Source of the DNA: Candidatus Aegiribacteria sp.
Lineage (GTDB): Bacteria; Fermentibacterota; Fermentibacteria; Fermentibacterales; JCC-6
Direction of reading: 5' to 3'
NCBI GenBank assembly: GCA_030600975.1
Contig: JAUVUL010000010.1
Span: forward strand, 1 to 11,512
DNA: 11,512 nucleotides
This document shows, piece after piece, positions 1 through 11,512 of the stretch (position 1 is its first letter; each line of letters opens with the position of its first letter). Below the pieces are notes generated by a model. It was not told where the DNA came from and did not search any database. It worked only from the letters and a program-made list of their open reading frames with translations. Made by a program: the position numbers and the translations under genes.

Positions 1-633
1 TGTCTTGTTCGCGAGGACAATGTCTTCGAAAGCTTTCAGGCTGAACTTGGCAAATTCCACAGCATCACGGGCAACATCCTCGATTTCTTTCCTTTCCTCC
101 TCGTTGAGCCCTTTTGAGACTCCTCCGGGAATCGATGAAACCGGATGTATGGTCTTTCCGCCCAAGGTCTTGATGACCTGATGACATCTGTGTCTTGTGT
201 TAATCACCTTGAGGCCTGTTTCCTTGCCGACCTTTGCAATAACGCCCAGGATATTTCTGACCTTCGGGTCTGAATCAGGCCCCACTATGAAATCAGGTCC
301 TCCGAGAATGTAGAAATGAGTTGCATGATCGGTTACGAAGAATGCGCTGTAGAGCAGCTCCCTCAACTTTTTTGCTGCTGAAGGGATTTCTACTCCGTAG
401 ACGGCATCCGCAGCCTTTGCAGAAGCCAGGTGGTGAGCTTCAGGGCAGACACCGCATATCCTGGTGGTTATCCTTGCCAGTTCCTCAACAGGGTGACCCT
501 CACAGAATGCTTCGAATCCCCTGAGCTCCGGAACCTGGAAATAGACATTATCAACATTACCTGCATCATCAAGAAATATCTCTATCTTCCCGTGACCCTC
601 AAGGCGGGTTATCGGGTCAATGCTAATCCGCAT
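1..633 (-). CDS. mvhA: [NiFe]-hydrogenase large subunit, MvhA-like, 3' end cut by window edge
   Basis: This is the large catalytic subunit of a group 3c-type, F420-non-reducing cytoplasmic [NiFe] hydrogenase, which oxidises or evolves H2. Only the first 211 residues are in the window; the frame stays open to base 1. The N-terminus reads MRISIDPITRLEGHGKIEIF, typical of the family. The L1 nickel-site motif RITTRICGVCPEAHH is at residues 54-68, with C60 and C63 as the N-terminal Ni/Fe ligand pair and H67 following. The C-terminal DPCxxCxxH ligands and the cleavable tail would lie beyond the edge. The ATG at 633-631 fits the family start and has a modest GGTG upstream. That leader and the first codons lie in the arm of an inverted repeat (624-806). 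The small subunit gene is immediately upstream, about 170 bases away, an unusually long gap for this compact operon. Family is certain; the Mvh assignment rests on MvhG, MvhD and Hdr neighbours. Confidence 0.95.
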   Translation of the reverse strand, partial: MRISIDPITRLEGHGKIEIFLDDAGNVDNVYFQVPELRGFEAFCEGHPVEELARITTRICGVCPEAHHLASAKAADAVYGVEIPSAAKKLRELLYSAFFVTDHATHFYILGGPDFIVGPDSDPKVRNILGVIAKVGKETGLKVINTRHRCHQVIKTLGGKTIHPVSSIPGGVSKGLNEEERKEIEDVARDAVEFAKFSLKAFEDIVLANKT

Positions 634-806
634 ATTTCACCAGCTTTCGTTTCGAAGCGTCGCAGACAGTTGTGGATACAAGGCTTGCGAGTGCAGACTC
701 CGCAGGCGTACTTAGATAGTACGTCGAGGACGGATGTACGAGCGTAACGAAGTAGACGCAGCTGTATGCGTCGCTGCAGTAGAATGCTGGCGAGATTTGC
801 GGGTTA
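624..806. repeat. Imperfect long inverted repeat (ERIC/MITE-like) between mvhG and mvhA
   Basis: The arms 624-669 and 762-806 are reverse complements of each other at about 34 of 46 aligned positions with one gap. The outer tips read TAATCCGCAT and TAACCCGCAA when each is read inward. The centre holds a perfect 6-bp stem, CGTACT (707-712) and AGTACG (718-723), with a 5-base loop. The whole segment could fold as one long imperfect hairpin in RNA or single-stranded DNA. The mvhG stop codon (804-806) is the tip of one arm and the mvhA start codon (631-633) lies inside the other. No transposase is encoded. Length and shape resemble ERIC or other non-autonomous palindromic elements; only one copy is in this window, so dispersal in the genome is inferred. 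Confidence 0.7.
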
Positions 807-1775
807 TTCTTTGTAGTCATCTGTAGTCTTCCTCCGGAGTATTGAATGCGGCAGGCTGAAGCGGTAGAAGAGACCTGCGGGGCAGGGGATCTGTTCCATT
901 ATCCTGTCCACTTCATCAGGGTCCTCGGAGTCTATTACTGAACCGAGGGCACTCACTATTTTCGCGCCCTGGTCAAATACTCCAGGCGGAGGCCCATAGC
1001 ACCCCCTGCACGGCATTCCGACTGAAGGGCAGAGAGCTTCACAGCCCGCACGTGTTCCTATTCCCGCGCAGTATATACCCTGTTCGAGCAGGCAGATGTC
1101 CGGTTCAGGCATGATCTGGTGGGGTCTGAAAAAACCGGAGATTTTCGTTTCTTTCTTCTCCAGCGGGCAGTCGTCGCACACGATCTTTGTGCCTGCACCT
1201 ACTACACTGCCCTTTTCAGGAAGATTGCCTTCTAGCACAGCTTCCAGTACGGCCCATGTCTGATCCGCGACAGGAGGGCATCCGGGAACGTAGTAATCCA
1301 CATCCACAACCTGATCGAGTGTGTATACCGTATCGTAGAGTTCAGGCAGTTCGAGTATCCCTTCAGGTACTTCCGTTCTGGTCCGGGGGTAGATACTCTC
1401 CGGATTGTCCATTGAAGGTACTTCGATGTAGCTGCGCCTGAGGATTTCCTTACGGGTTTTCAGGTTGGCAAGTCCCGGTATGCACCCTTCATAAGCGCAC
1501 GAGCCATAGGCCACGAGTAGTTTCGATTTCTGCCTGAGAAGCTCCGCCATCTCCTCGTTCTCCGAATTCCTTATGGCTCCGTTAAACAGACATAGATCTA
1601 TCTCCCCATCCTCCATCGCTCTGACGTCATCGTATTTAATATCGATAGCGCAGGGCCAGAAAACGATCTCCACCGCTTCGGAAAGAGGAAGTATTCTATC
1701 TCCTATATCCAGTATAGCAATTTCACACCCACCACAACTTGCAGCCCAGTAGAAGGCTACTTTCGGTTTGCTCAT
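804..1775 (-). CDS. mvhG: F420-non-reducing [NiFe]-hydrogenase small subunit, MvhG-like
   Basis: The small electron-transfer subunit of the hydrogenase passes electrons from the [NiFe] site toward MvhD and HdrA. It has 323 residues. The proximal cluster ligands are visible as C14-x2-C17 (ASCGGCE), C93 (GSCAYEGC) and C166 (PGCPP). A cysteine-rich C-terminal half (C200, C203, C228, C236, C245, C249, C256, C259) fits the further iron-sulfur clusters of the three-cluster MvhG/FrhG type. There is no signal peptide or twin-arginine motif, so it is cytoplasmic. I chose the ATG at 1775 because AAAGAGGA sits just upstream and the MSKPKVAFYW start is family-like; a longer in-frame reading to 1880 would run into the flavoprotein gene. 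The gap to the flavoprotein stop is 19 bases. The TAA stop coincides with the tip of the inverted repeat that separates it from mvhA. Confidence 0.93.
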   Translation of the reverse strand: MSKPKVAFYWAASCGGCEIAILDIGDRILPLSEAVEIVFWPCAIDIKYDDVRAMEDGEIDLCLFNGAIRNSENEEMAELLRQKSKLLVAYGSCAYEGCIPGLANLKTRKEILRRSYIEVPSMDNPESIYPRTRTEVPEGILELPELYDTVYTLDQVVDVDYYVPGCPPVADQTWAVLEAVLEGNLPEKGSVVGAGTKIVCDDCPLEKKETKISGFFRPHQIMPEPDICLLEQGIYCAGIGTRAGCEALCPSVGMPCRGCYGPPPGVFDQGAKIVSALGSVIDSEDPDEVDRIMEQIPCPAGLFYRFSLPHSILRRKTTDDYKE

Positions 1776-1781
1776 GAATAA

Positions 1782-1789
1782 TCCTCTTT
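1782..1789 (-). promoter_or_regulatory. Ribosome binding site deciding the mvhG start
   Basis: The minus strand reads AAAGAGGA six bases before the ATG at 1775. It supports this start over the longer in-frame reading that overlaps the upstream gene. Confidence 0.7.
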
Positions 1790-1794
1790 CCTCA

Positions 1795-3474
1795 TCAGGA
1801 CAGGGTTCCGAAGTATTCCTTCGTGAGCTGCTTTTTCCTGACCTCCGGATTGCTATAGTCCGGCAGTAGCATGGGAGCAATTCTCTCTTCCTTTATGCCG
1901 GCGGCTTCCACCTCTTCATTGTAGCGTTTCACATGATCAAGATTTACTTGATCACTTTCAACATGTTCATTTGCGTATTCAGCAGCATGTATACCTGCTA
2001 TCCTGCCAAACACGATAACATCGAGGAGAGAATTACCCATTAGCCTGTTCTCGCCATGAACTCCCCCGGACACTTCACCAGCGGCGAATAGACCGGGTAC
2101 ATTGGTTTCACATTTGTTGTTGATATTCAGCCCACCGTTCTGGTAGTGCAGCGTCGGGTGGATGAGCATGGGCTCCTTTGATATATCGATTCCAAACCGT
2201 CTGAAAAGGATATGTTTGCCGGGGAACTCTTTCCTTACTGTTCCTTCGCCCTTGAGCATGTCGATCATTGGAGAATCCAGCCATACTCCGAATTTGCCCG
2301 TGGGAGTGGGGACTCCGTTACCTCTTCCATCCGGGCTGCATTCGCGGATAATGCAGGCTGCCTCAACATCCCTTGGTTCGCGCTCGTAAACGAACTGCTC
2401 ACCGTGGATGTTAAGTACATTCGCGCCAGCGCCACGGAATTTTTCTGTTATCAGAATTCCCTCTGCCTGTTCAGGGAATACCACTCCTGTGGGATGGTAC
2501 TGCACCGTATGAAGGAAGGAAATAGGTACACCGGCTCTGTAAGCCATGACGATGCCATCCGCTGTGGCACCGTAGTGGTTGGTTGTCATGAAATTCTGTA
2601 TGTGCAGCCTTCCGCTTCCCCCGGTTGCTATTATGACAGACTTGGCTTTCACAAAAAGGTACTCGGCTGTTTCAAGGTTGTAGAGAATAGCACCTGCGCA
2701 GCGCCCCTTATCATCCAGGACCAGTTCCACCGCGGGACAGAATTCTATAACATCTATCATATCCGTGTGATTTCTGGCTTCGTCACGGATGGTCTTCATT
2801 ATTTCGGCACCGGTGATATCTGCAGCGTAGTGCATCCTCTTGCGGCATGTTCCACCACCATGCATGGTCTGCATTCTGCCGTCTTCGAACTTGGAGAAAG
2901 ATGTTCCCATCCCTTCGAGCCATCTTAGAGCGTCCGGTGCATTCTGGACCATGGTGTATACTAGTTCCGGGTCATTCACGAAGTGACCGCCTCCCAGAAT
3001 GTCCAGATAATGGTAGTAGGGAGAATCCTTACCGACCTTATCAGCTGCCTGAATACCACCCTCGGCCATCATAGTATTAGCGTCTCCATGGCGAAGTTTT
3101 GTCGCGATCGTAACCTTTGCACCGTTCTCAGCAGCAAGAAGCGCAGCCGCGGTTCCGGCTCCACCTGCGCCGATCACAAGAACATCAGTTTCGAAATCCG
3201 GTTCGAAAAGGTTGACAAGATGGGGATTTACCCTGCTTTTAGCTTCAAGGAGATCCACCATTTCGTTACTGATTGCATAACCTTTGCTTGGGCCGACTTT
3301 GATCTCACGGCGTGTTCCTTTGATAAAATCCGGATGGAAATCTCTGAGAATCGGTTCCCTTTCCTCAAGTTTGAGAGCAGGGAATTCCTCATCGTTCTTC
3401 TTTCTCTCCACCCTTGCAGGACGGGTGGCCACCACTTTTTCTATAAGCTTCTTCAGCGATTCAGGATACGGCAT
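1795..3474 (-). CDS. FAD-dependent fumarate reductase/succinate dehydrogenase-type flavoprotein (TfrA/FrdA-like)
   Basis: A 559-residue flavoprotein of the SdhA/FrdA/NadB/TfrA superfamily, which oxidises or reduces C4 dicarboxylates or related enoates. The FAD dinucleotide motif GAGGAG is at 102-107. Residues matching the fumarate reductase active site are all present: H327 (QYHPTG), T343-E344 (ILITE), R368 (EPRD), H443 (HYQNGG) and R477 (GENRLMGNSL). At the position of the histidine that covalently binds FAD in FrdA there is N133 (ANTMMAEGG), as in aspartate oxidase, so FAD is probably non-covalent. About 95 charged residues precede the FAD fold, longer than in FrdA. No membrane anchor gene is nearby, so it is probably soluble. 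The ATG at 3474 is chosen for the GGAGG six bases upstream. The gene follows an SdhB-like partner by 30 bases, inside an Hdr-Mvh cluster. Fumarate is the best guess for substrate, not proven. Confidence 0.85.
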   Translation of the reverse strand: MPYPESLKKLIEKVVATRPARVERKKNDEEFPALKLEEREPILRDFHPDFIKGTRREIKVGPSKGYAISNEMVDLLEAKSRVNPHLVNLFEPDFETDVLVIGAGGAGTAAALLAAENGAKVTIATKLRHGDANTMMAEGGIQAADKVGKDSPYYHYLDILGGGHFVNDPELVYTMVQNAPDALRWLEGMGTSFSKFEDGRMQTMHGGGTCRKRMHYAADITGAEIMKTIRDEARNHTDMIDVIEFCPAVELVLDDKGRCAGAILYNLETAEYLFVKAKSVIIATGGSGRLHIQNFMTTNHYGATADGIVMAYRAGVPISFLHTVQYHPTGVVFPEQAEGILITEKFRGAGANVLNIHGEQFVYEREPRDVEAACIIRECSPDGRGNGVPTPTGKFGVWLDSPMIDMLKGEGTVRKEFPGKHILFRRFGIDISKEPMLIHPTLHYQNGGLNINNKCETNVPGLFAAGEVSGGVHGENRLMGNSLLDVIVFGRIAGIHAAEYANEHVESDQVNLDHVKRYNEEVEAAGIKEERIAPMLLPDYSNPEVRKKQLTKEYFGTLS

Positions 3475-3480
3475 TGCTGA

Positions 3481-3485
3481 CCTCC
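3481..3485 (-). promoter_or_regulatory. Ribosome binding site deciding the flavoprotein start
   Basis: A GGAGG on the minus strand ends six bases before the ATG at 3474. It favours this start over one six codons upstream at 3492. Confidence 0.75.
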
Positions 3486-3504
3486 AATCCAATTCTCATA
3501 CTCA

Positions 3505-4248
3505 TCAGACGTACCTCGCATCCGCAGGTGTCCAGTCTTCCTCTGCCATCTGAGGTTCCGATTCCCGGGATTTGTACAACTCCTTCAGTTCTTCCGTTGA
3601 TTTACTCATCAAATCCCTCAGAGGTTCTTCGAACTTACCGCTATCTATCTGCTTGACTCTTTCGTGCAGATGTTCCGCTCTGAGGATTATGTGTCTTGCA
3701 TGCAACCGTCTTGCAAGGATGGCTACATTGAACTGTACTTCTTCCGCAGGACATCTGGAGGCACAGAGACCACACATGATGCAGTCAAATGATGTTTCGG
3801 CGGCACCTGCTATGTCACCCCTTATGGCCTGAGCCATGTAGTGCATAACATCTATGTCCATCGGGCAACCCTGGCTGCATGCATTGCACCCTATGCATTT
3901 GAAGATCTCGGGGTACAGGGCAGCGAGCTCGCCACCGGTTCCATTCATCTCTTCAATATCGAAGGATGACCTGTTCCCGGGATAAAAGGGCATTATCATC
4001 AGGTGCATTCCCGGCTGCACAACGGTCTGACAGGCCAGTCCAACCTGAAGTTTATAGCTGTCAGGTGTTCTGAATACGGTACCGCAGGCACCGCACACTC
4101 CTCCACGGCAGCCGCAGCCCCTTATGTGCTGATAGCCGGCGTATTCCAGTGCTTTCTGAATCGTAAGGCTTGCTGGTACTTCATACCTTTTCCCCATGAA
4201 GAAGATGGGAACAAGCAAGTCTGCGGTTGTTTCTGACGGTTCTGTCAT
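3505..4248 (-). CDS. SdhB/FrdB/TfrB-like iron-sulfur protein, [2Fe-2S] plus two [4Fe-4S] motifs
   Basis: A 247-residue electron-transfer protein, the likely partner of the flavoprotein that follows it. Residues 1-90 form a plant-type ferredoxin domain with C47-x4-C52-x2-C55 (CGCRGGVCGACG) and C73 for [2Fe-2S]. Two full CxxCxxCxxxCP motifs follow: C118/C121/C124/C128 (CIGCNACSQGCP) and C156/C159/C162/C166 (CIMCGLCASRCP). Respiratory SdhB has a [3Fe-4S] site, whereas here both distal sites look like [4Fe-4S]. Methanogen TfrB continues into CCG domains resembling HdrB; these are absent here, and HdrB is a separate gene in the same operon. The ATG at 4248 overlaps the mvhD stop as ATGA, with GGAGA upstream, suggesting coupled translation. 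No transmembrane segment is seen. The C-terminal ~60 residues are charged and may be helical. It could relay electrons between HdrC or HdrA and the flavoprotein. Confidence 0.85.
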   Translation of the reverse strand: MTEPSETTADLLVPIFFMGKRYEVPASLTIQKALEYAGYQHIRGCGCRGGVCGACGTVFRTPDSYKLQVGLACQTVVQPGMHLMIMPFYPGNRSSFDIEEMNGTGGELAALYPEIFKCIGCNACSQGCPMDIDVMHYMAQAIRGDIAGAAETSFDCIMCGLCASRCPAEEVQFNVAILARRLHARHIILRAEHLHERVKQIDSGKFEEPLRDLMSKSTEELKELYKSRESEPQMAEEDWTPADARYV

Positions 4249-4664
4249 TTTGCCATCTCCCTTACCGCGAGTTTAAGCGGCCCTTTTGAACGCAGTTCCT
4301 CTGTAAAATCATTCATTACATTCGCGAATTTCGCTCCCTCTGCAGCCGAGATCCACTCCAGTCGAAGGCGCCTGGTATCAATCCCGAAATCATCCAGCAA
4401 GCGGTTCAGGAGGGATACGCGAGCCTGTGTCTTGTAATTGCCATCCTCGTAGTGGCAGTCTCCAGGATGACATCCTCCTATGAGAACCCCGTCGGCGCCC
4501 TCATGGAATGCCCAGAGGATATGTTCAGGATCAACCCTGCTGGAACACATGAATCTGATATTAACTCCATTGGGCCTGTATTTCAGCCGGGAGGTGCCTG
4601 CCAGATCCGCACCGGCGCTGGTACACCATTTGCACAGAAAGCAGACGATCTTGGGCTCAAACAT
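4245..4664 (-). CDS. mvhD: Methyl-viologen-reducing hydrogenase delta subunit, MvhD
   Basis: MvhD is the small [2Fe-2S] protein that links the MvhAG hydrogenase to HdrA in bifurcating complexes. It has 139 residues and is full length. Family hallmarks are CFLCKWCTSAGADLAGTSR (residues 8-26, with C8, C11, C14), C40 in RFMCSSRVDP, and GGCHPGDCHY at 63-72 with C65 and C70. The start at 4664 shares one base with the HdrA stop (TGATG), and GGGAGG sits six bases upstream; an in-frame extension to 4748 would lie inside hdrA and is not family-like. Its stop overlaps the next start as ATGA. In typical clusters mvhD is adjacent to mvhG and mvhA; here the two fumarate-reductase-like genes intervene. Confidence 0.95.
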   Translation of the reverse strand: MFEPKIVCFLCKWCTSAGADLAGTSRLKYRPNGVNIRFMCSSRVDPEHILWAFHEGADGVLIGGCHPGDCHYEDGNYKTQARVSLLNRLLDDFGIDTRRLRLEWISAAEGAKFANVMNDFTEELRSKGPLKLAVREMAK

Positions 4665-6619
4665 CACACACCTCCCAAACTGGCTGTTACCATGGATTTG
4701 ATCTGGGAATCCGAGAGATTCCTCTGTTGAGTCGCTCCGCAGGCGCATGCGGCCACGCAGGAGCCGCAGCCTTCGCAGAGAGCTTCATTGACGATTACTA
4801 TTTCCTTCTCTTCATCGTATTCCCGAGCATCGTATGGGCAAACGGAAATGCAGATCCGGCAGCTTCCGCAGAGATCTTCATCAACCCATGCGACTGCAGG
4901 ATCCTGCTCCAGATGATCCCTTGAGAAGAGGGAGATCACCTTGCATGCTGCCCCGCTGGCCTGGGCGACCGTTTCCGGTATGTCCTTTGGTCCCTGAGCA
5001 GCTCCGGCTAAGAAGAAACCGCTGTTGATGCTTTCCACCGGGCGCAGCTTCGGATGTGCCTCGGCCAGGAAGCCGTTGGGTCCCGTCTGTATTCTGAGTT
5101 TCTTTACCAGCTCAGCCGTGCTGTCCTTAGGAACAACTGCAGTGGCCAGGACAACAAGATCAGCCGCGATTTCTATGTTCCTGCCGGTAAGGGTGTCCGT
5201 TCCCCAGACCACAGTTTTGTCACCGTCTCGGAATATTTTCGCAACCTTGCCGCGGAGATAGATGATATTCTCTTCCTCTTCGGCGTTATGGTAGAATTCT
5301 TCGTAGCCTTTTCCACCCGTTCTGATGTCTATATAGAAGATGTAGGGCTGGCCATCATGAACACGGTGCTTGTACAGAAGAGCATGTTTCGTTGTGTACA
5401 TGCAGCAGATCTTGGAGCAGTAGGGTTTGTAGCGCTCAGGATCCCTTGAACCCGCGCACTGAACGAAGACGATCTCCTTCGGAACCTTACCGTCAGAGGG
5501 TCTCCTTACCTCTCCGACGGTTGGGCCGGATGCTGACAGAAGGCGTTCAAAGGCCAGTCCATCAATGAGATCGGGAACATCACCTGCGCCGTATTCGGCC
5601 AGGTCAGCAACTGGAAGGGTTTCAAAACCGGTAGCGACTATAATGGCTCCCACTTCTTCTTCGACGAACTGATCTTCCTGTTCGAAATTTATTGCACCTA
5701 TCTCGCATACCTTTTCGCACAGGCGGCATTTTCCTGTTTTGAAGTAGATGCAGCTGTCTTTATCGATTACCGGTTTGTTGGGGACCGCCTGGGGAAAGGG
5801 AACGTAAATTGCCCCGTGTGTTGCAAGCTCCCTGTCAAAGGCGGAGGAGACTTTTGCAGGACATTTTTCCATGCAGAGGCCGCAACCGTTACATTTGGAC
5901 CAGTCAACAAAGGAAGCTTTCCGCCTTATCTTGACTTTGAAATTACCCACGTATCCGGAAACCTCTTCTATTTCGGAATAAGTCATGAGTTCGATGTTCG
6001 GATGTTTGCCTGCTGCAACCATCTTCGGTGTTAGAATGCACTGAGAACAGTCCAGGGTTGGAAATGTTTCAGAAAGCTGGGCCATATGCCCGCCGATGGA
6101 TGAATCCTTTTCTACAAGGATAACCTTATAGCCTGAATCAGCGATATCCAGGGAAGCCTGGATACCGGCGATGCCGCCACCGATCACAAGAGCCTTCTTT
6201 GTAATCGATACAGGAATCGGTTCGAGCGACTCGTTCAGCCTTGTCTTCTGAACTATTGTAGCGACAATATGAATGGCCTTACTGGTCGCCTTTTCTCTGT
6301 CTGAATGGACCCAACTGCACTGTTCGCGGATGTTCGCTATTTCGCACTGCCAGGGATTCAGTCCTGCCTCCTCTGCGGCAGCTCTGAAAGTGGATTCATG
6401 AAGATTAGGGGAGCAGGCAGCGATGATAATTGCATCCAGCTTTTCTTCTACTATCTTTTCCCGGACGAGGGTCTGCCCTGGTTCGGAGCACATGTAAATG
6501 TAATCCTGGGCATAGGCTACACCATCCATCTTCATCGATTCCTCGGCCACACGTTTAACATCGACCGTTTCAGCGATATTTATACCGCAATGGCAGACGA
6601 AGACTCCTATTCTTTTCAT
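4664..6619 (-). CDS. hdrA: Heterodisulfide reductase subunit A, electron-bifurcating flavoprotein
   Basis: HdrA carries the FAD that splits electron pairs between ferredoxin and the HdrBC side. It has 651 residues, the classical methanogen-type length, without a fused MvhD. The N-terminal domain has CHCG (C9, C11), C44 (MCSEPGQ) and C69 (ACSPNLHES). The thioredoxin-reductase-like FAD domain has GGGIAG at 147-152, SIGGHMAQLSETFPTLDCSQC at 174-194 (C191, C194) and the ATGFE stretch near 329. An inserted ferredoxin domain has C243/C246/C249/C253 and C290/C298/C301/C305. C388, C401, C405 and C406 lie in the second FAD half. A C-terminal ferredoxin domain has C584/C587/C590/C594 and C615/C618/C621/C625, the likely route to and from ferredoxin. 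The start overlaps the hdrB stop as ATGA, with a GGGGGTGAGGA leader. The gene ends in a one-base overlap with mvhD. Confidence 0.97.
   Translation of the reverse strand: MKRIGVFVCHCGINIAETVDVKRVAEESMKMDGVAYAQDYIYMCSEPGQTLVREKIVEEKLDAIIIAACSPNLHESTFRAAAEEAGLNPWQCEIANIREQCSWVHSDREKATSKAIHIVATIVQKTRLNESLEPIPVSITKKALVIGGGIAGIQASLDIADSGYKVILVEKDSSIGGHMAQLSETFPTLDCSQCILTPKMVAAGKHPNIELMTYSEIEEVSGYVGNFKVKIRRKASFVDWSKCNGCGLCMEKCPAKVSSAFDRELATHGAIYVPFPQAVPNKPVIDKDSCIYFKTGKCRLCEKVCEIGAINFEQEDQFVEEEVGAIIVATGFETLPVADLAEYGAGDVPDLIDGLAFERLLSASGPTVGEVRRPSDGKVPKEIVFVQCAGSRDPERYKPYCSKICCMYTTKHALLYKHRVHDGQPYIFYIDIRTGGKGYEEFYHNAEEEENIIYLRGKVAKIFRDGDKTVVWGTDTLTGRNIEIAADLVVLATAVVPKDSTAELVKKLRIQTGPNGFLAEAHPKLRPVESINSGFFLAGAAQGPKDIPETVAQASGAACKVISLFSRDHLEQDPAVAWVDEDLCGSCRICISVCPYDAREYDEEKEIVIVNEALCEGCGSCVAACACGATQQRNLSDSQIKSMVTASLGGV
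4671..4676 (-). promoter_or_regulatory. Ribosome binding site deciding the mvhD start
   Basis: GGGAGG on the minus strand lies six bases upstream of the ATG at 4664, inside the last codons of hdrA. It supports the short start over the longer reading frame. Confidence 0.75.
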
Positions 6620-7560
6620 TCCTCACCCCCCTTACCGGTACTGATTCCGATCTTATCCAGAACAGGGGTGACATCAACATAGTGCTTTTCAAACCCCTGT
6701 CTGCCGTATTCAACACCAAGTGCAACTGAGAGAAGCTGAGTAAAATAGAATATCGGAACAGGTTTAAAATCGGAATAGGCTTCAGTTATAGCCTTCTGTC
6801 TTGAATCAAGATTGTAGAAACACAGTGGACAGCTGACCACAACGGCATCTGCCCCGCTGTTTCTGGCTGAAGTGAGTATTCTGTAGCACAGCCTTGTGGA
6901 AGCGTCAGGACTGGAGACTGACAGATACGAACCGCAGCACTCCGTTCTGTAAGGGTATTTTACGGGCTTGGCATCCAGAGCGGTGATGAAATCCTCGATT
7001 ATCGAGGGATTCTCAGGGTTGTCCAGCTGTATTTCGTTCTGGGGTCTCAACATGACGCAGCCGTAATAGGGGGCGATCTTGAGTCCCTTCAATGATCTTT
7101 TAAGGCTTTCAGTGATCTTTTCGTAACCCAGTTCATCGCGCAGGTATTCCATGAGATGAATAACATTAACTTCGCCTGCGTAATCTTCCCATAGGGAATC
7201 ATCTTTCTCAAGATAGTCCCTTTCAGGTGTATCATCTGCAAGGAAGGCATTCACTCTTTTCCTGGTGATTTCATCGGATTTTATAATAAAATTTGTACGC
7301 TTCAGGGTGTTATAGCAGAAGTCGCATATTGTTATAAGAATATCTCTTCCTGAATCACGTACATCCTTCAGAATTCTGGAAGGGGCAACTAGGTTCATTA
7401 CCCTTTCTTCAGATACCGGGGGAACCGCCCCGCAGCAGGTCCATGTATCCAGCTCGTCCAGTTCAAAACCCAGTCTCACGGTAGCATCCCGTGCTGAGCG
7501 GTCGAGATGGGAGGACCGCTCATTAAGGGCACAGCCCGGATAGTAAGCAATCTTGGCCAT
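6616..7560 (-). CDS. hdrB: Heterodisulfide reductase subunit B, CCG-domain protein
   Basis: HdrB is the subunit that reduces the disulfide (CoM-S-S-CoB in methanogens) using two non-cubane [4Fe-4S] clusters. The protein has 314 residues. The first CCG domain is complete: C10, C42-C43 and C79-x2-C82, matching the C-x31-CC-x35-CxxC spacing. The second is also complete, with the C of YYGCVMLRP, then ECCGSY and CPLC. Nothing essential for disulfide chemistry is visibly missing, so this is more than a structural relic. The ATG at 7560 has GGAGG four bases upstream and starts the typical MAKIAYYPGC; the longer frame to 7677 would overlap hdrC. The gap to hdrC is 13 bases and the stop overlaps hdrA by four. 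The natural disulfide in a bacterium lacking coenzymes M and B is unknown. Confidence 0.95.
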   Translation of the reverse strand: MAKIAYYPGCALNERSSHLDRSARDATVRLGFELDELDTWTCCGAVPPVSEERVMNLVAPSRILKDVRDSGRDILITICDFCYNTLKRTNFIIKSDEITRKRVNAFLADDTPERDYLEKDDSLWEDYAGEVNVIHLMEYLRDELGYEKITESLKRSLKGLKIAPYYGCVMLRPQNEIQLDNPENPSIIEDFITALDAKPVKYPYRTECCGSYLSVSSPDASTRLCYRILTSARNSGADAVVVSCPLCFYNLDSRQKAITEAYSDFKPVPIFYFTQLLSVALGVEYGRQGFEKHYVDVTPVLDKIGISTGKGGEE

Positions 7561-7564
7561 GTTT

Positions 7565-7569
7565 CCTCC
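7565..7569 (-). promoter_or_regulatory. Ribosome binding site deciding the hdrB start
   Basis: GGAGG on the minus strand lies four bases before the ATG at 7560. It supports the short HdrB start instead of an extension of 39 codons into hdrC. Confidence 0.75.
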
Positions 7570-7573
7570 AGTT

Positions 7574-8017
7574 CTAGGTTGCCAGTTTTCTATAGACCCC
7601 AACAAGCCCCGGCTGAGGGACGGAAGCTGCCAGTTCCGGATCGATCTGATCCGGGCCGAAATGGTCAATTCCCTCATCCATCGCTATCTGCCTGAGTGCA
7701 TCCATCACTGCCTGTATGTCGATTCCTTTGGGGCATCTGACTGTACACTGGAAGCAACTTGCACAGATCCATATCGTTTCACTGTTGATAATGTCATCGT
7801 TTTGTCCCAGCTGAACCAGTCGTATGACCCTGTTGGGGAGAATGTCCATCTCCTGGGCCAGGGGACATCCGGATGAGCAGTTTCCGCACTGATAGCAGGC
7901 GTCCATATTCTGTCCGCTCAATTCATTCACCCGCTGTTTGAACCCGGTATTGACTATTTCAAGTGTCAGCCGGATCGGAGGGTTTTTTGGAGGAGCCAGC
8001 CCCATATTTTCACTCAT
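7574..8017 (-). CDS. hdrC: Heterodisulfide reductase subunit C, double [4Fe-4S] ferredoxin-like
   Basis: HdrC carries electrons from HdrA to the catalytic HdrB. This copy has 147 residues, shorter than the roughly 185-200 usual for methanogen HdrC. It has two complete cluster motifs, CYQCGNCSSGCP (C41, C44, C47, C51) and CASCFQCTVRCP (C85, C88, C91, C95), in the helical fold of the family. The shortening is mostly at the C-terminus, which still ends in a conserved-looking Gly-Pro-Asp and VPQPGLVG stretch. The ATG at 8017 has GAGAGGAGA about nine bases upstream; a second ATG at 8005 lacks such a site. The gene follows the maturation protease by 33 bases and precedes hdrB by 13 bases. Confidence 0.94.
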   Translation of the reverse strand: MSENMGLAPPKNPPIRLTLEIVNTGFKQRVNELSGQNMDACYQCGNCSSGCPLAQEMDILPNRVIRLVQLGQNDDIINSETIWICASCFQCTVRCPKGIDIQAVMDALRQIAMDEGIDHFGPDQIDPELAASVPQPGLVGVYRKLAT

Positions 8018-8050
8018 ACCGCTAATTCTCCTCTCGGTGTGGTATTGGAG

Positions 8051-8527
8051 TCATGTACCATACAGTTTGGAAAGAAGTTCTCGATTGATAATCTCTTCAG
8101 CAAATTCAGGTAGAAGCTCCCCCAGAGCAGGGGAAAGACCGTCTTCATACACTTCAGGCCTGCTTATTTCGATCCCATAGATCCTAACGTATTCGGGCAT
8201 TGAAAGACCCAGTGCATTACCGATATCCTGAAGCTGTTCTATAGAAAAATGATGAGCCGAGATCGGGGAAGAGCTGCGTTTCCGAAACTCAATCTCCATA
8301 AGTTCTCCCGGTTCGGCCTGACCAGTCGTGATAGAGTCTATGACGATAAGCCGATGGTGTCCTGAGATTTCATCCACCAACCTTATCAGAGAAACTGAAG
8401 TGGAAAGTACTGTCACTCCTGAGCCTGTTCCTAATCTATTCCCGATGAATTCAGCTACAGAACAACCTATTCCATCATCGCCGAGGATCGGATTTCCAAG
8501 ACCCAGGATCATTGTGCTGCTGGGCAT
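8051..8527 (-). CDS. [NiFe]-hydrogenase maturation endopeptidase (HycI/HyaD/FrcD family)
   Basis: This protease removes the C-terminal tail of the hydrogenase large subunit after nickel insertion, and so should mature MvhA at the far end of the same operon. It has about 158 residues, normal for the family. The opening ILGLGNPILGDDGIG (residues 7-21) contains the conserved acidic nickel-sensing residue D17; the other expected ligands are D64 (VIDSITTG) and H92 or H93 (SAHHFS). The start is uncertain: I took the ATG at 8527; a TTG at 8542 and an ATG at 8512 are alternatives, and none has a strong ribosome binding site. It is the first gene of the hydrogenase/Hdr run and may mark its beginning, although no clear promoter is seen in the short space before it. 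Confidence 0.9.
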   Translation of the reverse strand: MPSSTMILGLGNPILGDDGIGCSVAEFIGNRLGTGSGVTVLSTSVSLIRLVDEISGHHRLIVIDSITTGQAEPGELMEIEFRKRSSSPISAHHFSIEQLQDIGNALGLSMPEYVRIYGIEISRPEVYEDGLSPALGELLPEFAEEIINRELLSKLYGT

Positions 8528-8547
8528 TGTCTCAGTTTTCAATTGGT

Positions 8548-8567
8548 ACCGGTCTTGTTTAACCGGT
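8548..8567 (-). other. Short inverted repeat between the lipoprotein and protease genes
   Basis: Two copies of the self-complementary hexamer ACCGGT, at 8548-8553 and 8562-8567, can pair around an 8-base loop. They lie in the ~50-base gap where the transport/envelope genes end and the hydrogenase genes begin. A run of seven G (minus strand) precedes it. No U-tract follows, so an intrinsic terminator is not supported; an operator is possible but unproven. Confidence 0.3.
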
Positions 8568-8577
8568 GGCCCCCCCT

Positions 8578-8925
8578 TCAGGGTTCTCTGACAGAACCTG
8601 TCTCTATGGCGTAATCAAAATAATACCAGAAATAGTATACTATTTCCTCATTCGAAAATGTGTCTATCAGTTCCGCATTTACAATAGAATCTAGAGTGCT
8701 GTTCACTTCTTGGAACTCATTCCTGGCTCCTTCAAGCAGGAGACCAACGTGTTCGCAGTCTTCTCTGCCTGAGATGGAATCAAATTCCGTCCTGACATTG
8801 TCCGGAAGGGAAGCTCTGAAAGTATCAAGTCTTTTCTGTCTTCCTTCAGCCCGGGTTTCAGTGTTGCAGGATGAGACCATGAATATCACCAGTAAGAACA
8901 GAAACATATAAGTGGGTAATGTCAC
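8578..8925 (-). CDS. Small predicted lipoprotein, unknown function
   Basis: A 115-residue protein I do not recognise. The N-terminus is a hydrophobic segment (MFLFLLVIFMVSSC) ending in a plausible lipobox with C20, followed by a polar, helical-looking mature part rich in Glu, Asp and Arg. The C-terminal part contains an aromatic patch, YYFWYYFDY. It is likely lipid-anchored in the envelope. The start is probably the GTG at 8925, which overlaps the stop of the preceding PorV-like gene as GTGA; an ATG at 8907 would still leave a full signal peptide. No clear ribosome binding site precedes either, which favours coupled translation from the upstream gene. The tight link suggests a shared envelope role with the outer-membrane protein. 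Confidence 0.65.
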   Translation of the reverse strand: MTLPTYMFLFLLVIFMVSSCNTETRAEGRQKRLDTFRASLPDNVRTEFDSISGREDCEHVGLLLEGARNEFQEVNSTLDSIVNAELIDTFSNEEIVYYFWYYFDYAIETGSVREP

Positions 8926-9830
8926 AGAGTAATGCCAAGGCTGAATCTGTGAATGTTCCCTAGATCCGCAAAGGGTTTGAATGCGTAATCAAAAGAGAAT
9001 ATGTCCCAGTTAGTACCTGCACCGAATGCAAGGGCATCAAAAATACTTCCACCGGCATTGTCGGCAGCGTTCTTGTCATGAAGATTCCCCCCAGCCCTGA
9101 TCGAAAGCATTTCCACAGGGTAATACTCAACGCCGAGGGCTGCATCGAAATCCCCCTGAAGAGGATAACTTGCATCGGCGGCGACCAGCAGCCTGTTGTT
9201 AAGAAATTCAGCCGATGCTCCCGCTGCAATTGTTGTGGGTACGGGATCATTTTCCCGGTAGAACGCCTTGGTCTGAATGCCTGCGTTCCTTACGACAAAT
9301 CCGAATGAAATAAGGGAAGGTTTGTACCATGCTCCCACATCCACAAGAAAAGCATTCCCGCTGTATGAATCGATACTTGAATATACGAACTTCGCAGTTG
9401 TTCCAACGGAAAAGGACTGTCCGAATTTATGCACGTAGGTTCCTCCGAGCGAAACACTGTTAGTGCTGAATTCCTCGCCGTTTCCCGTGGGATTCATCAT
9501 AGTGGTTCTTATGAAGCTGCCTCCATAAAAGTAATTCACGGAAACTCCTACAAGATCATCTCCAGAGGGATTAACCCATCCCACAAATCCAGCCTGCATA
9601 TCCATCAGATAACCTGTATAAGTAGAAGTAAACATCTGCTCCTGCATTCCGGCCAGTGTAGCGGGATTCCAGTACAGACCCATGGGATCCCCATGAACTG
9701 CTGTGAAAGCGCCCCCCATCGCAACAGCTCTGGCACCGACGGGAACCTGCAGGAAGGCGAAACCTGCTGTACCAGCAGATGCTGAGCCTGAAATTATTGC
9801 CAGCATGACTGCTGCCAGAATTTTCTTCAT
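8922..9830 (-). CDS. PorV/PorQ-family outer-membrane beta-barrel protein (UPF0164-like)
   Basis: A 302-residue outer-membrane protein of the PorV/PorQ group, distantly FadL-like. A signal peptide covers residues 1-19 (lysine pair, hydrophobic core, SASA before the cut). The mature protein starts with the family signature: AGFAFLQVPVGARAVAMGGA, then HGDPMGLYWNPATLAG. Alternating strand-like segments rich in Gly, Ser and aromatic residues follow, and it ends in IHRFSLGITL, a reasonable outer-membrane strand. In Bacteroidota some family members serve type IX secretion, but many candidate-phylum genomes carry numerous unrelated copies, so a secretion role is not claimed. The ATG at 9830 has GGAGA six bases upstream. 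It follows a small secreted protein by 50 bases and its stop overlaps the lipoprotein start. Confidence 0.85.
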   Translation of the reverse strand: MKKILAAVMLAIISGSASAGTAGFAFLQVPVGARAVAMGGAFTAVHGDPMGLYWNPATLAGMQEQMFTSTYTGYLMDMQAGFVGWVNPSGDDLVGVSVNYFYGGSFIRTTMMNPTGNGEEFSTNSVSLGGTYVHKFGQSFSVGTTAKFVYSSIDSYSGNAFLVDVGAWYKPSLISFGFVVRNAGIQTKAFYRENDPVPTTIAAGASAEFLNNRLLVAADASYPLQGDFDAALGVEYYPVEMLSIRAGGNLHDKNAADNAGGSIFDALAFGAGTNWDIFSFDYAFKPFADLGNIHRFSLGITL

Positions 9831-9880
9831 TGATATTCTCCGTTTCGCAGTTCTTTAGAATAACAGATAGACTATGACCA

Positions 9881-10315
9881 TTAATCGTTCCAGTCAACAG
9901 GGGAAAATGCCCATACAACTGCAACACTGTCACTCCTGAAACCCCTGATCATGTCATATACGCATATAATCAATCGTTTCCCTTCGGATACCTGTGCTGA
10001 ATCGAGCCTGAGAACAGGATAATCGTCCGGCATTGAATCTTCCAAAAACCAGTCCTCTCCCTCCAGTCTTAGACCCAAGTCAAGGATATTGTTCCCGCCC
10101 AGGGTTGCGTAGAAACCTCCAGTTGATGAATTCAACGGGGGATAGACCATAATAGTACATGGTTCAAGAAGGTTGAGCCTGCATTCGATTATTCCGATTC
10201 CGGTATAACCCTGGGATGACAGCCTCTCAAGGAAAGCTAAAGCTTCCGAATGAAGAGTGCCTCCTGATTTTGGAATTACCACCACCAGTAATACGAAGAA
10301 TAAAATTCTTTTCAA
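9881..10315 (-). CDS. Small secreted protein of unknown function, probable TTG start
   Basis: I do not recognise this 144-residue protein. Starting at the TTG at 10315 gives a clean signal peptide, MKRILFFVLLVVVIPKSGG, and AAGGA lies a few bases upstream at the end of the permease gene. An ATG at 10369 is in frame, but it would overlap the permease by more than 50 bases and bury the signal sequence, so I prefer TTG. One base separates its start codon from the permease stop, which implies coupled translation. The mature part looks strand-rich and acidic, with three cysteines (C45, C53 and one in LIICVYD) and a tryptophan near the C-terminus. The export signal and position beside ABC permease and outer-membrane genes suggest an envelope role. 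Confidence 0.65.
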   Translation of the reverse strand: MKRILFFVLLVVVIPKSGGTLHSEALAFLERLSSQGYTGIGIIECRLNLLEPCTIMVYPPLNSSTGGFYATLGGNNILDLGLRLEGEDWFLEDSMPDDYPVLRLDSAQVSEGKRLIICVYDMIRGFRSDSVAVVWAFSPVDWND

Positions 10316-10316
10316 A

Positions 10317-11105
10317 TCAATCCTTGATTCCGGATCTGCTGTAACTTGCAACAATGCGTTTCTGAACAAAAAGGAAAAGGATTACGAGGGGCATTGTGCA
10401 AAATGTTGAAGCCGCCATCAGAAGCTCGAAGTTGCTGGACTGCTCCTGGTTGAAATACGACAATCCCACCTGGAGCACTCTGAGGTTCTCCGAATGTGTT
10501 ACAACCAGGGGCCACATGAAACTGCTCCATGATCCGATGATATTAAACAGAATAACCGTAACGATTACCGGCTTGGAAAGAGGCAGGACTACCTTCCATA
10601 GATATTTAAGCCTCCCGCAGCCATCAAGAATAGCTGCTTCGTACAGGGTTTTGGGAATAGTCTTGAAATGCTGCCTGAGAAGGAATATGCTGAAAACATT
10701 CGTTGTCCAGGGTATTATCAGAGCCATATAAGTGTTTATCCAGCCGAGCTTTGCAAGAATAACATATGAGGGAGCGAGGTAAACAGGCTGAGGCACCATC
10801 ATCGTTGAAAGGAAGAGCAGAAAAAGAGTATTTCTTCCCCTGTATTTCATTGTGGCAAAGGAATATGCAGCCAGGCTGGCTGTTACCAGTACTCCTGCTA
10901 CGGTGAGCAGCGTAACAAGCAGCGTGTTAAGAAAATACCTGCCGAATGGAACCTTGGTCCATGCTTCAACGTAATTGCCCAGGCCTCCCTGCTGGAGAGA
11001 GGTGTTAACCATCCAGAGGAAGGGGAGCAGCATGACAATACCCCCCAGTATCAGGAAGAAATGCTTGGTGATACTCATTGCTGTTGTTCTTGGATTCATC
11101 GGCAT
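10317..11105 (-). CDS. Carbohydrate-type ABC transporter permease, MalG-like (second permease)
   Basis: An inner-membrane permease of the MalG/UgpE group, pairing with the preceding MalF-like permease to import a sugar or related solute. It has 262 residues with about six membrane segments (near residues 14-32, 57-80, 92-115, 122-143, 178-200 and 228-248). The ATPase-docking EAA loop is present at 156-180: EAAILDGCGRLKYLWKVVLPLSKP. The first periplasmic loop (WMVNTSLQQGGLGNYVEAW) is about 15-20 residues shorter than usual. The ATG at 11105 shares one base with the stop of the upstream permease (TAATG); an ATG two codons later is also possible. No ATPase or binding-protein gene is in the window, so the substrate cannot be named. 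Confidence 0.9.
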   Translation of the reverse strand: MPMNPRTTAMSITKHFFLILGGIVMLLPFLWMVNTSLQQGGLGNYVEAWTKVPFGRYFLNTLLVTLLTVAGVLVTASLAAYSFATMKYRGRNTLFLLFLSTMMVPQPVYLAPSYVILAKLGWINTYMALIIPWTTNVFSIFLLRQHFKTIPKTLYEAAILDGCGRLKYLWKVVLPLSKPVIVTVILFNIIGSWSSFMWPLVVTHSENLRVLQVGLSYFNQEQSSNFELLMAASTFCTMPLVILFLFVQKRIVASYSRSGIKD

Positions 11106-11446
11106 TATGAGTAATACACCCGCTTACCCGCAACCCTGCGCTGAACAATCGTAAGCGAAAGGAGGATGAGAAAGAGGAAAACGGAGATAGCGCTTGCGTA
11201 ACCGATATCAAACCGGTCGAATGCCTTCTGGAAAAGGTAGAAAACCATTACATTTGTCGTTCCCAGTGGTCCCCCGCCGGGAGGAGGCGTCATAACGTAA
11301 ACCAGAGCAAATGTCTTGAACGACACGATCGTACTCATGATAAGCACGTAGTAAGTCGTTGGTGAAAGGAGAGGCCACGTAATGTGACGGAATGTGCCCC
11401 AGGCACCCGCTCCGTCCAGTCTTGCCGCTTCGTAGCCGGTGTATCT
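11105..11446 (-). pseudogene. C-terminal fragment of MalF-like ABC permease, broken or misjoined upstream
   Basis: About 113 codons encode the C-terminal third of a MalF/UgpA-type permease. The fragment begins inside the expected RYTG-YEAARLDGAGAWGTFRHITWPLLSP region, which includes the EAA loop and Pro-containing end (EAA at about 11423-11431). Two membrane segments follow (around LIMSTIVSFKTFALVYVMT and SAISVFLFLILLSLTIV), and it ends in VYYS overlapping the next start. Immediately before the first codon given here the frame meets a TAG (11449-11447), and the sequence beyond does not encode the hydrophobic helices that should come first. It is therefore either a truncated gene or an intact gene whose 5' part is lost to a bad join at the sequence end. 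Type is given as pseudogene only because the reading frame is broken here. Confidence 0.75.
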
Positions 11447-11512
11447 CTATAAGAAAATATCTTTTTTTTGAACAAGGGTAGGAAGTGCAACGAACGGGTT
11501 AGGTGTTTGAAA
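11447..11512. other. Discordant sequence at the right edge
   Basis: These 66 bases are about 35 percent GC, below the rest of the window, contain a run of eight T, and fit none of the frames expected for a MalF-like permease. One minus-strand frame enters from the edge and ends at the TAG at 11449-11447 after about 21 codons; I recognise nothing in it. A misassembled contig end or a real insertion or rearrangement are both possible. Confidence 0.5.

Follow-up and report, generated by a model that had tools for sequence, protein, structure and literature searches.

Characterised complexes built on HdrA are listed with CoM-S-S-CoB and methylene-tetrahydrofolate (methylene-H4F) as acceptors, and fumarate does not appear among the high-potential acceptors of characterised bifurcating enzymes in the relevant sections of a review (PMC5861303). 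Methanogens hold two systems that bear on the locus described here, the HdrABC-MvhADG complex of hydrogenotrophic species (5odc) and TfrAB, whose iron-sulfur subunit TfrB is reported, in passages of PMC11223495, to carry one [2Fe-2S] and two [4Fe-4S] clusters. In this study, we analysed a window of 11,512 nucleotides from Candidatus Aegiribacteria sp., phylum Fermentibacterota (assembly GCA_030600975.1, contig JAUVUL010000010.1, positions 1 to 11,512 of the forward strand), in which a pair of genes resembling frdB and frdA lies inside a cluster of hdr and mvh genes. We propose, at about an even chance of being right, that the cluster encodes a soluble fumarate reductase of the cytoplasm that has HdrABC as its core, is fed here by H2 and would probably bifurcate electrons to ferredoxin.

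An frdB-frdA-like pair between mvhD and mvhG

The window is contig C384 of the metagenome-assembled genome G000 (2.17 Mb, 391 contigs, 61% complete). Naming by open reading frame (ORF) calls and protein-family profile searches (Pfam, NCBIfam) places nine genes on the minus strand in the order protease, hdrC, hdrB, hdrA, mvhD, frdB-like, frdA-like, mvhG and truncated mvhA. This is the order that an earlier sequence-only reading had claimed, and with refined coordinates its placing of the frdBA-like pair between mvhD and mvhG stands. The small spacings that it noted everywhere but before mvhA were likewise borne out; gaps of 33 bases (protease-hdrC), 13 (hdrC-hdrB), 30 (frdB-frdA) and 19 (frdA-mvhG) and overlaps of 4 bases (hdrB/hdrA), 1 base (hdrA/mvhD) and 4 bases (mvhD/frdB) precede a final gap of 170 bases between mvhG and mvhA.

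The FrdA-like flavoprotein (559 residues, 1795..3474) is a FAD_binding_2 protein (PF00890, 259 bits) whose best NCBIfam model is TfrA (NF004900), at 342 bits with a cut-off of 718. Aligned with E. coli SdhA (1nek), its dicarboxylate-site positions are H327, T343, E344, R368, H443 and R477, matching what we take to be H242, T254, E255, R286, H354 and R399 of the E. coli protein, and all six are invariant across 36 sequences, down to 55% identity. Asn133, likewise invariant in the 36 sequences, occupies the position of the flavin-linking His. The SdhA alignment leaves about 93 N-terminal residues unmatched, and the protein lacks the C-terminal SdhA domain; a structure model (mean pLDDT 82, pTM 0.86) has E. 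coli FrdA as its closest match in a fold search.

The FrdB-like protein (247 residues, 3505..4248) carries one [2Fe-2S] motif and two [4Fe-4S] motifs, the same set of clusters as TfrB, and the cysteines for all three are invariant in 32 sequences. Within its second half lies a stretch similar to HdrC (32% over 56 residues). Its structure model has a pTM of 0.57, and a fold search gave weak matches of low TM-score, to the complex I 75 kDa subunit, RnfC and, at rank 26, HdrC. Against the TfrB model NF004898 (cut-off 385), FrdB scores 32 bits, HdrC 30 and HdrB 41, on separate genes.

Among the flanking Hdr and Mvh subunits, HdrA, HdrB and MvhD have matches in Hdr complexes of solved structure. 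HdrA (4664..6619, 651 residues, with FAD and ferredoxin domains) scores 790 bits with NF040770, whose cut-off of 1100 is set for a longer HdrA-MvhD protein, and aligns with bifurcating HdrA over residues 3-648 (8rvu_a, E 7e-209) and 3-640 (5odc_A). In HdrB (6616..7560; PF02754 in two stretches), the alignment with 8rvu_b keeps the ten cysteines of two intact CCG motifs, those of both non-cubane clusters. HdrC (7574..8017) contains Fer4_8/Fer4_17 domains and scores 79 bits with TIGR03290, under its cut-off of 160, and MvhD (4245..4664) is above cut-off for PF02662 at 167 bits and matches 5odc_D. The hydrogenase is represented by mvhG (804..1775; PF01058, and NF045875 at 221 bits, under its cut-off of 450), by a maturation protease of HyaD/HycI type (8051..8527; TIGR00072, 87 bits with a cut-off of 47) and by mvhA (1..633; PF00374 at 84 bits, and NF041785 at 226 bits on the partial protein), which the start of contig C384 limits to its first 211 codons. 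In the relative L008, MvhA is complete, with both nickel motifs, and matches 5odc_F.

Conservation and pathway context of FrdA loci

A strong FrdA match was found in 20 of 42 genomes of the phylum (G000 included), in four of the nine genera that the set covers and in 17 of the 19 genomes of the window's own genus. We fetched and read the stretches around FrdA for the other 19 carriers. The full order, protease included, recurs in seven (L116, L117, L120, L121, L122, L131, L132) and five more agree as far as their contigs reach (L118, L128, L129, L130, L134); in G006, the end of frdA is on a second contig that also carries mvhG and mvhA. That the order might be unique to this contig, set beforehand as a refutation of the sequence-only reading, proved not to be so, since it is kept in 12 of 19 others where contigs allow. 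One further carrier, G041, combines hdrCBA-mvhD-frdBA with a second mvhD-mvhG-mvhA-protease set at a distance of about 20 kb.

The remaining six stretches (L119, L123-L127) hold hdrA-frdBA, joined by hdrC and hdrB wherever the contig extends to them; full mvhD, mvhG, mvhA and protease genes were not found in these stretches, of which L127 is too short on both sides. Genome-wide, no MvhA match in these six carriers exceeds 40% identity, and none at all was found in G024. All six keep an in-frame remnant of the mvhD C-terminus, 37-51 codons long, that overlaps the start of frdB and may have been kept solely for translational coupling. In a tree of joined HdrA, FrdB and FrdA, the six fall in three places, and loss of the hydrogenase genes, with HdrABC-FrdAB retained, has therefore probably happened two or three times.

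Paralogues were also considered. That the FrdA-like protein is the NadB of G000 was rejected, as it scores 278 bits with TIGR00551 (cut-off 453) and a separate NadB on contig C381 scores 504. One weaker FrdA match, at about 30-37% identity, occurs in each of the 42 genomes, and only the G000 copy was identified as NadB. G041 carries a second FrdA-like paralogue (G041:C51:97872-99482; 49% identity) beside its 76% copy.

A wider survey covered the best 80 of 577 FrdA loci, with neighbours counted within about 10.5 kb; L006-L010 equal five of the phylum contigs in length and are not counted as independent. FrdB was recognised next to FrdA in 72 of the 80 and an hdr gene nearby in 62, and 24 have hdrB and hdrC without hdrA. 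Either mvhG or mvhA lies near eight loci, five of them L006-L010, and the three hydrogenase-gene cases outside the phylum are L016, L019 and L043. L016 reads hdrC, hdrB, a GltD-HdrA fusion, frdB, frdA, mvhD, mvhG, mvhA and protease; L043 reads fumA, fumB, sucC, sucD, hdrC, hdrB, frdB, frdA, hdrA, mvhD, mvhG and mvhA; and in L019, hdrCBA-mvhD-frdBA precedes genes for a 2-oxoacid oxidoreductase, and an mvhA fragment lies about 9 kb upstream. That these parts recur in different arrangements speaks for a joint function. Suc genes neighbour nine of the 80 loci, Fum genes five and Kor genes nine, and 21 have any of SucC, SucD, FumA, FumB, KorA or KorB. One representative of each neighbour family was named by NCBIfam, with suc and fum above their cut-offs and the Kor-type matching 2-oxoacid oxidoreductase models below theirs. 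As a rough estimate only, with one sucCD operon in every 3 Mb or so, fewer than one of the 80 loci would be expected to have it as a neighbour.

Two further gene sets were seen in this survey. A family of about 380 residues with iron-sulfur motifs (c6; no NCBIfam model matched at 1e-10) stands near frdB, mostly after mvhD, in 14 loci (L013, L014, L015, L018, L020, L021 and others) and may be another electron donor subunit. At L011, L012, L044, L045 and L077, FrdBA is found with molybdopterin oxidoreductase, NrfD-like, multihaem and flavin mononucleotide (FMN)-type membrane genes, read mostly by eye, the molybdopterin protein alone having been checked on one representative; these FrdBA are perhaps a membrane-linked version.

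Genomes that carry FrdA tend also to carry enzymes for its presumed substrate and product. SucD scores above cut-off in 16 genomes and in G000, where it is split over two contigs, which amounts to 17 of the 20 FrdA carriers, and in none of the 22 genomes without FrdA (Fisher p 4e-9, kinship not corrected for, with both traits confined to the same four genera). Restricting the table to the 24 genomes with a completeness of 90% or more gives 10/1 versus 0/13 (p 6e-6, again not corrected for kinship). The 18 best fumarase-beta matches (at least 166 bits) all come from FrdA carriers, with weaker fumarase matches in other genomes. Genes for sucCD and fumarase adjoin in the nine genomes read around sucD or fumB (fumA was not called in G007, nor sucD in G041, though the profile search places SucD there), and in G000 they are split over two contigs. 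A malic-enzyme-like gene follows sucCD-fumAB in five of the nine; the one copy checked scores under the cut-off of its model. In G041, hdrCBA-mvhD-frdBA lies among genes for isocitrate dehydrogenase, an aconitase-like protein and fumarase, together with suc genes. The Sdh_cyt anchor (PF01127), the one anchor type searched, was found in none of the 42 genomes and in 7 of 14 controls, and the futalosine quinone family in none of the 42 and in 4 of 14 controls, MenD-route genes lying outside this search. Methylmalonyl-CoA mutase was rejected as a partner, being absent in the FrdA carriers G006, G009, G013 and G041 and present in 22 of 22 non-carriers. The sequence-only reading had left the acceptor as fumarate or another enoate; because a dicarboxylate-type site goes together with co-occurring SucD and one fumarase type, these genomic data favour fumarate/succinate, and the other half of that claim is disfavoured.

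The 170-base gap between mvhG and mvhA (634..803, minus strand) consists of a dispersed repeat that finds 36 matches across G000, its own copy included. In a copy of about 170 bases at L149 (about 301-480), the repeat reads with inverted ends some 20 bases long. It is absent from this junction in all nine relatives in which the junction was inspected, and there the two genes share a 17-base overlap. In the window, reading from the ancestral mvhA start runs into a dead end of 65 codons, and the frame opens again with the ATG at position 633, which reads as part of the end of the repeat. The repeat split mvhG from mvhA and broke their overlap.

Upstream of the protease, on the minus strand at 8578-11347, lie genes for a sugar-type ABC permease, two proteins of unknown function (162 and 115 residues) and a PorV-like protein of 302 residues. 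The same genes recur upstream of the cluster in L116, L119, L123 and L125, even where the hydrogenase is gone. G000 also has five FlpD/MvhD genes (L001-L005), with an HdrA-like ORF near three of the four lying outside the window, and several Hdr systems coexist in this genome.

Proposed electron path and competing explanations

Beyond the observed gene order, its conservation, the residues and the pathway context, we infer a physical complex, an electron path, bifurcation and a direction of flow. H2 would be oxidised by MvhA/MvhG, and MvhD would hand the electrons on to the FAD of HdrA, which would split the flow, half to ferredoxin and half to HdrC and HdrB. FrdB, the second half of which is HdrC-like, would receive the electrons of HdrB, the two jointly matching parts of methanogen TfrB, and FrdA would reduce fumarate to succinate. 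The predicted net reaction is 2 H2 + fumarate + oxidised ferredoxin -> succinate + reduced ferredoxin, from which succinate could pass onward to SucCD and reduced ferredoxin to Rnf or 2-oxoacid synthases. In relatives without hydrogenase, the HdrABC-FrdAB core would be fed by another donor. The associations are nested, FrdBA going with HdrCB, then HdrA, then MvhD, then MvhGA, which suggests HdrB/HdrC as the route of electrons to FrdA and the hydrogenase as one of several donors. The linkage of Hdr-Mvh with the frd pair drawn in the sequence-only reading holds as to conserved order, but the pair goes foremost with HdrB/HdrC, and six relatives show that the hydrogenase can be lost. Computed with textbook potentials and ferredoxin at -420 mV, the bifurcating reaction yields about -85 kJ at 1 bar H2 and -28 kJ at 1 Pa; with ferredoxin at -500 mV it yields -13 kJ at 1 Pa. 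Bifurcation is thus energetically allowed.

Several observations weigh against this explanation. Six carriers lack both a full mvhD and a close relative of mvhA, and H2 is therefore not the general donor. FrdA carriers G015 (92% complete), G018 and G024 have no SucD above cut-off. RnfC is above cut-off in 34 of 42 genomes, including 17 of the 20 FrdA carriers and not G000, and the 2-oxoacid oxidoreductase alpha subunit (NF006412) in 38 of 42, G000 included; both are common throughout the phylum and therefore do not discriminate. In the wider survey, no hdr gene lies near 18 of the 80 loci, several of which are on short contigs, and five of these 18 (L011, L012, L044, L045 and L077) carry membrane-type redox genes instead.

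The retention of both CCG motifs in HdrB, and the match of HdrB and FrdB to parts of TfrB, which the passages on it in PMC11223495 describe as the oxidiser of CoM-SH and CoB-SH, would also fit a thiol:fumarate reductase mode. Here HdrB would still act on a disulfide, of a small molecule or of a protein; HdrABC would reduce it, HdrB with FrdBA would oxidise the dithiol using fumarate, and a thiol carrier, in place of direct wiring, would link the two halves. We consider this unlikely, as no carrier is known for the phylum (CoM/CoB synthesis genes lay outside the search) and DsrC, an unlikely candidate for a standing HdrB substrate, was found in just 2 of the 20 FrdA carriers.

The proposed H2-to-fumarate flow could also run backwards, with succinate and reduced ferredoxin oxidised together to release H2 during syntrophic growth. 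The subunits are reversible in principle and a sucCD-fumAB operon, with its malic-enzyme-like neighbour, suits either direction. Such confurcation would need very low H2 and strongly reduced ferredoxin, however, and the forward reaction is still favourable at 1 Pa H2; Asn133 in place of the flavin-linking His, moreover, presumably suits reduction over succinate oxidation, judging from E. coli FrdA mutants. We therefore regard the reverse direction as quite improbable.

Alternatively, FrdAB may be merely co-transcribed with an Hdr-Mvh complex and act as a separate enzyme, as the 18 of 80 loci with an FrdA-like gene and no nearby hdr could suggest, several of these being limited by short contigs. 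This has a small probability in our judgement, given that frdBA lies between mvhD and mvhG and overlaps mvhD at its start, that it remains with hdrA once the hydrogenase genes are lost, and that 24 of the 80 loci pair frdBA with hdrC and hdrB with no hdrA within 10.5 kb. That the substrate is an enoate other than fumarate is very improbable indeed, for although FAD_binding_2 flavoproteins reduce several enoates and one of the weaker relatives found is a urocanate reductase, the six dicarboxylate-site residues are invariant and the neighbouring and co-occurring genes are those of fumarase and succinyl-CoA synthetase.

Relation to known systems

Well-studied bacteria usually reduce fumarate by membrane-bound machinery. 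The FrdA of the window shares its dicarboxylate-site residues with complex II and quinol:fumarate reductase, but neither the FAD-linking His nor the Sdh_cyt anchor was found. Hydrogenobacter thermophilus reportedly has a soluble, multi-subunit, NADH-dependent fumarate reductase that serves the reductive tricarboxylic acid cycle; the resemblance to the proposed enzyme would lie in its being soluble and multi-subunit, the difference in its NADH donor. Going further, and at somewhat less than an even chance, we suggest that the cluster may replace complex II with a wholly cytoplasmic system; fumarate, via an HdrB-docked FrdAB, would be the high-potential acceptor of flavin bifurcation by HdrA, giving quinone-free, H2-driven ferredoxin for Rnf and 2-oxoglutarate synthase, with an HdrB-FrdB-FrdA module working on varied donors across many phyla. 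If so, cells without a membrane fumarate reductase could nonetheless conserve, in reduced ferredoxin, the large energy drop between H2 and fumarate, and genomes with fumarase and SucCD and no recognisable complex II anchor would gain a fumarate/succinate step. The proposal also yields a prediction that can be tested on thousands of related proteins (at least 7,999 matching).

Compared with HdrABC-MvhADG of hydrogenotrophic methanogens, HdrA, HdrB, MvhD and the MvhA of L008 match their counterparts and the nickel hydrogenase comes with its own protease, whereas here FrdBA stands between mvhD and mvhG, the host is bacterial and the predicted acceptor is fumarate, not CoM-S-S-CoB. As for TfrAB, TfrA is the nearest NCBIfam model for FrdA, and FrdB, HdrC and HdrB each match part of TfrB, but scores fall far under both model cut-offs (718, 385), the TfrB parts are on separate genes and these are joined to HdrA and a hydrogenase. 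The class E SdhABE/methylmenaquinol:fumarate reductase (MFR), as presented in passages of PMC2680327, similarly combines a flavoprotein, an iron-sulfur subunit with a second [4Fe-4S] cluster and an HdrB-like cysteine-rich partner (NF042965, 134 bits). It works with a membrane quinone, however, and the window flavoprotein scores only 237 bits with the MFR model NF042982, under a cut-off of 1100. MetVF-HdrABC-MvhD of Moorella and relatives, as outlined in sections of PMC7325909 and PMC5861303, also adds a flavoprotein for a metabolic acceptor to an Hdr core and MvhD, but its acceptor is methylene-H4F and it is described there without hydrogenase or FrdAB.

Nearest among published cases are HdrL3 of Desulfobacterium autotrophicum HRM2 (PMC2702500) and an sdhB-tfrB fusion in the anaerobic methanotrophic archaea ANME-2 (PMC11223495), both as given in passages of those papers. 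HdrL3 is Hdr-type, has a predicted fumarate reductase domain and is followed by mvhD, but it is a single large fusion with an NADH site, and the passages on HdrL3 in PMC2702500 describe no separate FrdBA pair or MvhGA with it. No description of FrdAB wired to Hdr-Mvh was found in a literature search of open-licence papers, an absence that is weak because of that limit. The cluster would extend the known HdrA-based complexes with a proposed wiring to FrdAB for which the literature searched gave no description.

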